Origin: Candidatus Altimarinota bacterium
GTDB taxonomy: Bacteria > Patescibacteriota > Gracilibacteria > BD1-5 > UBA6164
NCBI GenBank assembly: GCA_024710565.1
Contig: JANJUN010000005.1
Span: 1 to 33,498, forward strand
Direction of reading: 5' to 3'
Length of the DNA: 33,498 nucleotides
Position 1 is the stretch's first letter; every line of letters begins with the position of its first letter. A program made the translations under genes and the position numbers. The notes under the pieces are model-generated. The model was given only the letters and a program-made list of their open reading frames with translations. It had not been told where the DNA came from and searched no databases. Positions 3,284 to 30,925 of this stretch are shown here, piece after piece.

Positions 3284-3705
3284 AATTTTAGCAAGAGCAT
3301 ACATCTACGCTTTATCTTGAATAAAGTGAGGAAAGTCTGGACTCCACGAGGAAATTACAAAAGCTAACGGCTTTGATTTGAAGATATAATTCATAAACTT
3401 CAAATACCACGAGTGCCACAGAGACGATACTAGAGAGCAATCTCAAAAGGTGAAAAGTCAAAAGGTGTGGGATAAACTAATTTTATAAATTTTTATAAGT
3501 AAGATTATTTCGCTACTTTTGAAGTTATATTGCAAAATATAATACTTGGTAAACTGTGTATGGAGCAATGGGAATGGTATTTTTTGTTATTTATTCCTCT
3601 ATTGGTAACAAAAAATATACTCAGCTTGAGGTGTGAAGTGATTCACATCCTAGATAGATTGATGTAGAAGTACAGAATCCGGCTTATTACTCTTGCTAAA
3701 ATTTT
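3284..3705 (+). ncRNA. rnpB: RNase P RNA, bacterial type
   Basis: P1 helix arms aattttagcaagag/ctcttgctaaaatt; conserved gaggaaagtctggactcc, ccacagagacgatac, gatagattgatgtagaagtacagaatccggcttat. Confidence 0.93.
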
Positions 3706-15142: not shown

Positions 15143-15298
15143 ATGACAAAAAACCAAAGTAATTGGCCTCAATTTCGCAAATGGAAAAAGGATTTTCGCA
15201 AAAAACATCCTGAAATTTTGACGCTTCCCAGTAATACACGGAAACATATCTATACAAAAGCATTACAAGAACAAGGGATTAGAACGAAAACTACTTGA
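15143..15298 (+). CDS. 51-aa basic protein that appears to use TGA as stop; compositionally foreign
   Basis: SD ggag 8 nt before ATG; MTKNQSNWPQFRKWKKDFRKKHPEILTLPSNTRKHIYTKALQEQGIRTKTT then TGA; terminator follows; Arg codons mainly CGC/CGG. Confidence 0.7.
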   Translation: MTKNQSNWPQFRKWKKDFRKKHPEILTLPSNTRKHIYTKALQEQGIRTKTT

Positions 15299-17966: not shown

Positions 17967-19310
17967 TTACTTGTCAAAAAAATTTTTCTTTTTTTCTATC
18001 CAAAAACCTTCCTGTCTACAAATTTTTAACACATCGTTTTTATCAAGTAAAATATATTTCAATGCCTCTTCCATAAAAATAGTATTCTGACTTCCTTTAA
18101 ATAAAAGAATATATTTTTTATCTTCTGTTTGCAATTTTTCTTGCAGAAATTGTCATAAAATCTTTGAGTTTTTAAAATGTTTCGCCTGAGGAACGAGAGG
18201 TAAAAAGTATTTTTGCATACTTTCTCAAACAATAAAAATATTTCCTGATTTTTCTTTTAAAAAATGCGCTAATTTTTCATGTTCTGCTTTGGTGTATTCT
18301 CAAAGTTCTCTCATTTCTCAAAGACATAAAATCATCTCATAATCTGGATATATTTTTTGAGATAAAAGGAAAAAATTTTCTAAAACTTTTTTCATACTTT
18401 CGGGTGCCGCATTGTATGAACTATCAACTAAAATAGAATTTTTTATTCCTGGGAAACAAGAAAATCTTGAATATTGCAAAGTAAAATTCAAATATAATTC
18501 TTCTCAAATAAGAGAAAAAAGAGATTTATTATAGTATTTGCGATATAAAATATCTGCTATACAAAGTCAAACACTTATATATCAAATATTTTCTTGCCCG
18601 ATTAAATTTGAGGTAATTTTTAAATTTTGTTTATGATGGGATACCAATTGAAAAGAGGAAGTCACCACTCCATCTTTTTTTTCTAAAGTATATTCTCTTC
18701 ATTGAATATCTGTTTTTTGTTCTTTTTCCTCTCAGGAAGTAGTATAAAATATTTTATCTGAAACAATAGTTTTTTCATATATTTTTGAAAATTCATCATC
18801 CATATTAAGAAAACTTACTTCTTTGCTAGATTGAAGCAATTTATATTTTTCACTCGCTATTACCTCTTTAGACTCAAATTGACTGGAATGTACTTTATCT
18901 ATTTTTGTTACAATTCCAATTTCTGGAGTAACAATAGAAAGTAAAAAATCCATTTCTCAAATATGATCTATTCCATACTCTAAAAAGATAATATCATATT
19001 TTTTTTCTCAAAAAAATGACGTGCAAAAAGCTTTTATAAGTGTTTTTATAACCGATAAAAAATGTGGTTCATAATCAGAAATTCATAAAACAGAAAGACT
19101 CAACCCAAGTTCTCCATTAAAATTTTTACTCGAAGTAGCAATAATTTTTTCCGGTAATTGTTGCTTGAGTAATTCTGAAATAATCATTCTACAACTTGTT
19201 TTTCCTATACTTCCTGTGACTCAAATCACAAAAGGTTTTTGTTTTTTTATATATTTTTTTGCTAAAAATCAAAATACTTGAAAATAGACATGGAGGAGTT
19301 TTTGTTTCAT
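17967..19310 (-). CDS. murF: MurF-type Mur ligase (UDP-MurNAc-tripeptide:D-Ala-D-Ala ligase-like)
   Basis: FVIGVTGSIGKTSCRMIISELL P-loop, ATSSKNFNGELGLSLSVLG, YDIIFLEYGIDHIGEMDFLLSIVTPEIGIVT, ILVDSSYNAAPESMKKVLENF. Confidence 0.9.
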
Positions 19311-19373
19311 AATTTTTTTTCTAAAAATATTGGTGTGATGATTATATGATTTTTGATTTTTTTGCAAAAAGAA

Positions 19374-19398
19374 AAACCTTCGTAATAAACGAAGGTTT
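19374..19398 (-). terminator. Rho-independent terminator between the 92-aa ORF and murF
   Basis: Minus strand: aaaccttcgt ttatt acgaaggttt followed by ttcttttt. Confidence 0.88.
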
Positions 19399-19424: not shown

Positions 19425-19703
19425 TCATCGAGGATAGGTAACTCGCCGAGGAGTAATCCCCGTCAAGTCTTGCAACATTTTTGCTGACGATTCACATCCG
19501 GTAAGAATCATTCTCCTGTCGCCATCCACGATCGGATTTCCATCATTATTGAGAAAATCACGGCCGGGATGCCGCAGGCGACGAAGCGAAACAAACTGTT
19601 TCATAACCGCCTTGAATGAGCCAGAAATCTGAGCCAAGGGAAAACCCTTAACGATCAAGGTCTCACTCGTCATGTGTGCCGTATTATAGCGTTCCAATTG
19701 CAT
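19425..19703 (-). CDS. 92-aa protein that appears to use TGA as stop; compositionally foreign
   Basis: SD aaaggag 5-6 nt before ATG; MQLERYNTAHMTSETLIVKGFPLAQISGSFKAVMKQFVSLRRLRHPGRDFLNNDGNPIVDGDRRMILTGCESSAKMLQDLTGITPRRVTYPR then TGA; 8 of 10 Arg codons are CGN; all 7 Gly codons are GGN and none is TGA. Confidence 0.75.
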   Translation of the reverse strand: MQLERYNTAHMTSETLIVKGFPLAQISGSFKAVMKQFVSLRRLRHPGRDFLNNDGNPIVDGDRRMILTGCESSAKMLQDLTGITPRRVTYPR

Positions 19704-19720
19704 GGTGTTCTCCTTTTTTT

Positions 19721-19734
19721 CGTCAAAACTGACG
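19721..19734. promoter_or_regulatory. Small palindrome upstream of the 92-aa ORF (possible operator)
   Basis: cgtca aaac tgacg just upstream of the SD; TTGACA-like element further upstream (19762-19767, minus strand). Confidence 0.35.
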
Positions 19735-19831
19735 ATATCTTTTTACATATTTTTATTATTTTGTCAAGAAAAAAATACATTTTTTTAAAAAAATAGATAT
19801 AATATCCGTATCCTAAAAATAATCTTAGACT

Positions 19832-20827
19832 ATGAAAAATTTTTATTTGGTAGATTTATGAATTGATAAAAGTAAACAAAATGCCTATATTTCCAATACT
19901 CTGCTCTCAAAAATAGAACAAAACCTAAAAGAAAAGAAAAAAATTATTCTCTATCTCAACAAAAGATGAGCCTATGATTTTGTTTTGTGTGAAGATTGTC
20001 ATCATATAAAAAAATGCCTAAAATGTGACATCTCTTTATCAGTACATAAAAATCCTGAAAGATATGTATGTCACCATTGTATGTATACAGAAAATATTTC
20101 TCTTGAATGCGAAAAGTGTCATGGAACAAAATTAAAACATATCTGAGTAGGAACACAACAAATAGAAAAAAGTCTCCAAATACTTTTCCCAAAAACACGT
20201 ATTTTTAGAATGGACAGCGATAGTGTGAGAAATATTTCTGGAAAAAAAGAAGCTCTGAGTAACATAGAAACTGCTGAGATTATTATCGGAACAAAGATGA
20301 TAACTACTGGATTTGATTTGAGAAATATTTGATTGATTGGAATTATTTTACTCGAACAAGAACTTCAAATTCCAAAATACGATACAGAAGAAAAAATCTA
20401 TCAAAATATAAGGCAACTTATCTGAAGATGATGAAGATTATGAGAAGAGAGTGATATCTTGATACAAACCCTCGCACCTAAAAACGGAATGATACAAAAT
20501 ATAGTTGAGCTCAATTATAAAGATTTTTTCAAAAAAGTCCTCGAAGAAAGAAAAATATTTCACTATCCTCCTTTTGTTGAACTCGCAACCCTCAGATATA
20601 AAGATAAAAATAAACTCGCTTCTATCGATTATATAAATACTCTGAAAAATACGCTTGACGCCTACAACTCAGGAAATTTTGAAATCATAAAAATTGATAC
20701 TCCTACCAAAAGAGACAACCAATTTTTCACCAAGATCATTATCAAATGAGAAAATATTAGAAATTTTCTCCAAAATATAAAATGAGAAATTCTCAAAAAC
20801 AAAGATTTAGCCGTTATTTTTGAATAA
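19832..20827 (+). CDS. PriA-like protein, C-terminal half only
   Basis: KKKIILYLNKRGAYDFVLCEDCHHIKKCLKCDISLSVHK...CHHC...CEKCHG zinc region; IIIGTKMITTGFD; motif VI QLIGRGGRLGEES (three Gly are TGA). No Walker A/B region upstream. Confidence 0.87.
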
Positions 20828-30714: not shown

Positions 30715-30787
30715 TCTGAGAAATCAGATTATTTTTTTTGAAATAAAATTTGACTTTCTTTTTTTTTCTATATAATCAAACTACTTT

Positions 30788-30925
30788 CTATATCAAAGAC
30801 AGTTGGCAGAAATATAAGTCCAACCGAGATAAAAAAGAAGTTTTGACTCTGTTTATACATAAAACAAAACACTATCTTTTTATCTTTTGGTAAAAAGATT
30901 TTTTTATTTTAGAAAGTATAATATC
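30788..30925 (+). promoter_or_regulatory. Ribosomal protein L10 mRNA leader
   Basis: Core caaagacagttggcagaaat...taagtccaaccgagat resembles the L10 leader; upstream of rplJ; followed by a hairpin (tatctttttatcttttggtaaaaagat...). Confidence 0.7.

Follow-up and report, generated by a model that had tools for sequence, protein, structure and literature searches.

A conserved 92-residue gene with standard-code codon use and a UGA end in Gracilibacteria that read UGA as glycine

Available BD1-5 genomes lack prfB, the gene for release factor 2 (RF2) (PMC6851277). Phages compatible with genetic code 11 have been predicted for the Gracilibacteria and Absconditabacteria; these phages depend on backup stops, and prophages use code 25 (PMC10746230). 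A second point of comparison is provided by arfA and brfA, whose mRNAs are non-stop and are held down by trans-translation; in brfA, a terminator precedes the stop codon (PMC10107115, PMC8012679). A third is the horizontally acquired gene that retains the codon use and signals of its donor.

Here we analyze a 92-aa gene within a window of 33,498 nucleotides, the whole stretch of DNA examined, from a UGA=Gly bacterium. Like the genes of code-11-compatible phages, which are predicted to work in such a bacterium, it has no in-frame TGA. However, those are phage genomes whose TGA stops are followed by a close backup stop (PMC10746230), whereas the 92-aa gene is an isolated chromosomal unit that has no backup stop before its terminator. 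It shares with arfA and brfA a small product and an mRNA predicted to end before any in-frame stop that the cell can read. It differs from them in that an in-frame UGA marks its conserved end, its predicted fold is globular and no sequence relation is seen; moreover, ArfA and BrfA need RF2, which the genomes carrying the 92-aa gene lack. An odd composition, a donor-type Shine-Dalgarno (SD) sequence and stop, and a sporadic distribution liken it to horizontally acquired genes, but here the recipient cannot read the stop, the promoter is of native type and the family is so far known only from Gracilibacteria. The literature searched (subscription journals and preprints excepted) yielded no description of such standard-code units on chromosomes.

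Throughout, G000 is the genome of the window, G001 and G003 are other species of the same genus (group g1) and G062 belongs to another family. The locus has the following features, listed by window coordinates.

19425–19703, minus strand: the ORF itself, 92 aa in the standard code and closed by TGA; homologues occur in G001, G003 and G062 (AlphaFold2 model, pLDDT 86).
19425–19427, minus strand: the terminal TGA, where the conserved part ends when the four homologues are compared.
19709–19715, minus strand: SD sequence AAGGAGA, whose duplex with the 16S tail has −9.9 kcal/mol for the native and −8.7 kcal/mol for the canonical form of that tail.
19720–19735, minus strand: 5′-UTR hairpin upstream of the SD (dG −7.2, z −1.8).
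19740–19767, minus strand: predicted promoter, TTGACA (19767–19762), a 16-nt spacer and TAAAAA (19745–19740); 29 nt are identical in G001, and the spacing is that of native promoters.
19365–19398, minus strand: intrinsic terminator, a stem and T tract; no in-frame TAA or TAG occurs from the TGA to its end.
17967–19310, minus strand: murF-like neighbor in code 25, syntenic in G001.
19832–20827, plus strand: priA-like neighbor in code 25, syntenic in G001.
15143–15298, plus strand: possible second SD-led, TGA-ended ORF (51 aa, basic), with a terminator 27–55 nt on; uncertain.

A preliminary description of this DNA had singled out the ORF by its strong SD, CGN-type Arg codons, higher GC, absence of TGA-Gly, TGA end and terminator, and all of these check out. 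Six nucleotides separate GGAG from the ATG, the seven Gly codons are GGN with no TGA, eight of the ten Arg codons are CGN, and the GC content is 0.48, with a third-position GC content (GC3) of 0.49 versus 0.18 in native genes. The terminator stem lies 29–54 nt past the TGA (dG −12.6, z −5.2). The leaders of the homologues fold too, with 5′ structures that differ between copies. The same description held that other genes in the window have little or no SD; among long native ORFs, no more than 1% are preceded by an AGGA/GAGG-type motif. Because no TAA or TAG follows the TGA before the murF end, a table 25 reading fuses the 92-aa ORF and the murF-like gene into one in-frame ORF of 578 aa, and under that translation the gene would stay hidden.

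Other elements of the window and its genome are recorded here for completeness. The priA-like gene encodes only 331 aa, with equal length in G001, roughly what the C-terminal half of PriA normally spans. A class A RNase P RNA (145 bits) occupies positions 3289–3702, and an L10-leader-like element just under the Rfam threshold lies at positions 30775–30913. In contig C26 of G000, the same 327-codon sequence with a tRNA-Gln occurs twice in opposite orientation (L096 233–1216, L097 17171–18154), which may reflect either an extensive inverted duplication or an artefact of assembly.

Protein and profile searches across 353 genomes of the class identified homologues in G001, G003 and G062 (the last with E 3.5e-9 using a three-sequence profile) and no convincing homologue in the class beyond these; two of the homologue contigs are DKNE01000037.1 and JACFNZ010000005.1. 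Weak phylum- and class-wide matches (E 0.003–0.02 per genome, 350–380 genomes) are at chance level, and the two inspected, L037 and L042, were unconvincing. Identity between the G000 and G001 copies is 0.61, 0.72 and 0.33 at the first, second and third codon positions, a pattern that we read as the mark of a protein under selection; judged by these alignments, the ORF is a genuine, conserved gene. A structured RNA was considered and rejected, as there is no credible Rfam or ARAGORN match and the codon positions behave as those of a protein gene. AlphaFold2, run on the four sequences, gave a confident small alpha/beta fold, predicted to be ferredoxin-like from the order of its elements. Fold comparison of the model returned no relative in the PDB or among viral models (best E 0.13 and 0.20), and Pfam, PHROGs and NCBIfam held no match for the protein. 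Outside the class, no standard-code homologue was found in phages, plasmids, IMG/VR or a pattern-limited genome scan. An origin from a phage or plasmid was likewise set aside, with no match to either, phage families and PHROGs included; the other units of the kind described below are similarly matchless.

The UGA end is conserved. In all four copies, a TGA stands at the end of the alignment, none of the Gly codons is TGA (0 of 7, 5, 5 and 7) and the terminator comes ahead of any in-frame TAA or TAG; in G001, G003 and G062, a TAA comes only past the terminator. The stretch after the TGA is not conserved as protein and contains a hairpin and T tract in each copy. These homologues uphold the proposal that the gene looks built for a system where UGA is a stop: none has TAA or TAG at its end, and none shows a conserved extension past the TGA. 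From base composition, the joint chance that no backup stop occurs in four of four homologues is about 0.035; across eight cases it is 0.004, though these examples were picked. A looser ORF list also holds TGA-ended ORFs with backup stops, one of 59 aa in G062 and two of three in G020.

Each of five genomes (G000, G001, G002, G003 and G062) has one RF-1-family gene with an RF1-type PET (PxT-type) motif, itself containing 6–8 in-frame TGA codons, and none has an RF2 gene. At the end of one G000 contig lies a TCA-anticodon tRNA that ARAGORN labels SeC. Because only RF1 is present and no TAA or TAG precedes the terminator, the 92-aa mRNA would be non-stop in these cells. Readthrough or rescue at the UGA, suggested earlier as programmed, is thus a prediction from the RF1-only genome once the word 'programmed' is dropped. 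In G001 and G062, tmRNA genes were predicted together with their tags; the tmRNA search gave no match over threshold in G000, G002 and G003.

The gene is not alone of its kind, contrary to the earlier impression that it is unlike others; a class of such genes exists in its relatives. We scanned stretches of five genomes (about 0.35–0.8 Mb each) for SD-led table-11 ORFs followed by a terminator, obtaining 17 matches in G062, 11 in G000, 2 in G001, 3 in G003 and 13 in G020, versus 0, 0, 1, 0 and 0 in reversed sequence (G062, G000, G001, G003, G020). Some weaker matches are probably chance or fragments of native genes. The clear cassettes carry no TGA-Gly and are set among code-25 genes. In G062, the dapD product shares 71% identity with its E. 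coli counterpart, and the gene has a GC content of 0.59 and 31 Gly codons, all GGN and none TGA; two paralogues of 153 and 134 aa both end in SS followed by TGA; six of the 17 SD-led standard-code ORFs there have TGA ends. In G020, purL (112 GGN, 0 TGA) and an AIR-synthase-like gene (37 Gly codons, no TGA) both lie next to code-25 genes. A 394-aa membrane protein family, without a Pfam match, occurs in G001, G014 and G029, three genera of one family; TGA accounts for 0 of 29, 0 of 38 and 0 of 36 Gly codons, the genes end in TGA, TAG and TAA, respectively, and each has an SD and a TTGAC promoter. The 92-aa gene would belong to this wider set of apparently horizontally acquired, SD-led, terminator-tailed standard-code units.

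Several neighborhoods in these genomes are worth recording. An SD-led standard-code c-type cytochrome gene sits between TGA-rich genes (G062, L044 13243–13635), and a run of small pilin-like genes has SDs and no TGA-Gly within the code-25 genome of G062 (L049 132–2718). The two G020 genes above flank a code-25 purN-like gene (L176 7107–13219), so that one pathway is written in two codes. Within the window, the statement that other genes never end in TGA may be inexact, the 51-aa ORF being a possible exception. Its next in-frame stop is 47 codons on, and it has homologues in G026 and G008; because the G008 homologue has one TGA inside the matched part, its status as a TGA-ended case is uncertain.

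Promoter spacing and, in g1, SD pairing favor expression by the Gracilibacterium itself. The clear cassettes mostly have a TTGAC(A/T)-N16-TATAAT-like promoter in which the 16-nt spacing dominates and the spacer stays near 12% GC irrespective of ORF composition. Among native code-25 genes with a TTGAC box, 49 have the −10 element at 16 nt and 27 at 17 nt, over a background near 9. Since the promoter of the 92-aa gene is conserved and has this native-like spacing, transcription by the Gracilibacterium is favored over a host-only gene. In native TTGAC-TATAAT promoters of G000, G001, G003, G062 and G020, the −10 box frequently stands some 30 nt upstream of the initiation codon.

The canonical 16S rRNA 3′ end is ...ATCACCTCCTTA. 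It is altered in two ways in these bacteria, to ...ACTATCTCCTTA in g1 (G000/G003; L169, L170) and to ...ACCACCTCTCTA in G062 (L168); an SD is almost never used by native genes. In the three g1 copies of the 92-aa gene, which were chosen by homology and not by SD, the SDs form duplexes of −9.9, −12.3 and −12.7 kcal/mol with the native tail and −8.7, −8.7 and −9.1 kcal/mol with the canonical tail. The G062 homologue shows the reverse, −2.6 with the native tail versus −5.6 with the canonical tail. For g1, with its few and related copies, SD pairing thus argues for expression in the Gracilibacterium.

We now consider the history of the locus. The order murF, 92-aa gene, priA-like gene is common to G000 and G001, which makes a chimeric assembly unlikely; murF was not found in G002. 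The shared locus and promoter, together with similarities that follow the species tree, count against the very recent transfer proposed at first: the G000 protein is 52, 36 and 28% similar to its homologues in G001, G003 and G062, and MurF is 80, 52 and 40% similar, in the same order. The coding part has nevertheless diverged more than its neighbors. Synonymous codons differ between G000 and G001 at 29 of 48 shared residues (60%), versus 95 of 356 (27%) in murF and 91 of 259 (35%) in the priA-like gene; the computed saturation level is 43% under native codon use and 55–65% under mixed use. GC3 of the gene is 0.49 in G000 and 0.46 in G001, compared with 0.13–0.23 in the neighbors and 0.18 and 0.14 genome-wide, and codon use in the G003 copy is AT-rich, as in native genes (GC3 0.13). 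Because a frame drifting in G000 should already be AT-rich, we infer that a standard-code pool of intermediate GC supplied a replacement for the coding part or that its codon use is selected, which falls short of proof.

TGA makes up 44% of Gly codons in G000, 55% in G001, 72–73% in G062 and 86% in G003. High expression, considered as a cause of TGA avoidance, accounts in part for G000 (29% TGA-Gly in its translation set) and not for G003 (84% in GroEL/DnaK) or G062 (66%). The G003 figure (L103–L122), which extends to GroEL and DnaK, and that of G000 come from the same genus.

Taken together, the 92-aa gene may well be an accessory gene with an evolutionary past under the standard code, now standing behind a native-type promoter with its UGA end unrepaired, one of the wider set; this is a tentative preference. 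A relic of transfer is our first choice, and functional use of the UGA its main rival. The cell's own RNA polymerase would transcribe from TTGACA-N16-TAAAAA, as spacing and conservation suggest, and initiation would proceed through strong pairing of the SD with the recipient's 16S tail. UGA would then be read as Gly, as expected from RF1 alone, a UGA-reading tRNA and the established code 25, and the ribosome would run to the mRNA end at the terminator, where trans-translation would rescue it and tag the product. With trans-translation at a non-stop end, little mature 92-aa protein is expected unless termination occurs at the UGA. The divergence of the coding part, higher than that of the neighboring genes, suggests that alleles were exchanged at the locus. 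The foreign GC3 of the G000 and G001 copies supports transfer, and that of G003 does not. Counting against the relic reading, the searches of phages, plasmids and IMG/VR and the pattern-limited genome scan gave no standard-code homologue, the MurF-like order of similarities suits vertical descent, and the G003 copy, with its native-like codons, is not plainly foreign. It is also odd, if the gene is used and its UGA is a relic, that TGA is kept in four of four copies though TAA is one transition away.

That retention is what one would expect if the UGA-free body and the single UGA before a stop-less tail served a purpose, as conditional non-stop control. Decoding as Gly would send the ribosome into the terminator and to tmRNA tagging; failed decoding or trans-translation, or a foreign RF2, would yield active protein. 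The absence of backup stops ahead of all four terminators and of internal TGA, the native-type promoter, the g1 SDs suited to the native 16S tail and the tmRNA genes of G001 and G062 fit such control, whose logic is that of the non-stop arfA and brfA mRNAs with UGA added (PMC10107115, PMC8012679). But dapD and others, unlikely sensors, share the UGA-plus-terminator layout, the protein (92 aa, with a confident globular model) is unlike ArfA and BrfA, and G000, G002 and G003 gave no tmRNA match over threshold. We regard this control as unlikely. That the gene senses the genetic code itself, giving active protein only once UGA is no longer read as glycine, because the tRNA that reads UGA has been lost or an invader using the standard code brings in RF2, is a slimmer prospect still.

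Somewhat less probable than purposeful control is that UGA still usefully terminates by another route, such as a relaxed RF1 or another factor, and that the standard-code proteins are simply made. TGA is not visibly purged from the SD-led standard-code genes of G062, and the end position is conserved across the 92-aa family as well as between the 153- and 134-aa paralogues. Against termination stand the RF1-only complement with its PxT-type motif and the frequent UGA-Gly codons inside essential genes, prfA included.

We also doubt that this is an ordinary code-25 gene with UGA as Gly, a weak terminator and a longer C-terminus. The frame is open past the UGA in all four copies and runs into murF in G000, but the sequence beyond is unconserved as protein and forms a hairpin and T tract in each, the other three reach a TAA only beyond the terminator, and the body lacks TGA-Gly where native genes have 44–86%. 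Finally, it is very improbable that the cassette is addressed to the translation system of a host or prey cell with the standard code and expressed there after delivery, as had been suggested: its SD, code and UGA stop do set it apart from native genes, and several G062 SDs, including that of the 92-aa homologue, suit the canonical tail better (a comparison biased for the other cassettes, which were picked with canonical-like motifs), but the native 16-nt spacing, AT-rich spacers even before the 59%-GC dapD, better pairing of the three g1 SDs with the recipient's altered anti-SD and codon composition that varies widely within one genome all speak against it.

The 92-aa gene is ordinary as one of the standard-code imports; what makes it unusual is that four copies, all in bacteria with RF1 only, have retained the UGA end. 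Recoding is often viewed as a barrier to gene flow; standard-code units that persist across it would show how such genes enter and are used, and those ending in UGA would be a natural test of events at UGA in a cell without RF2.
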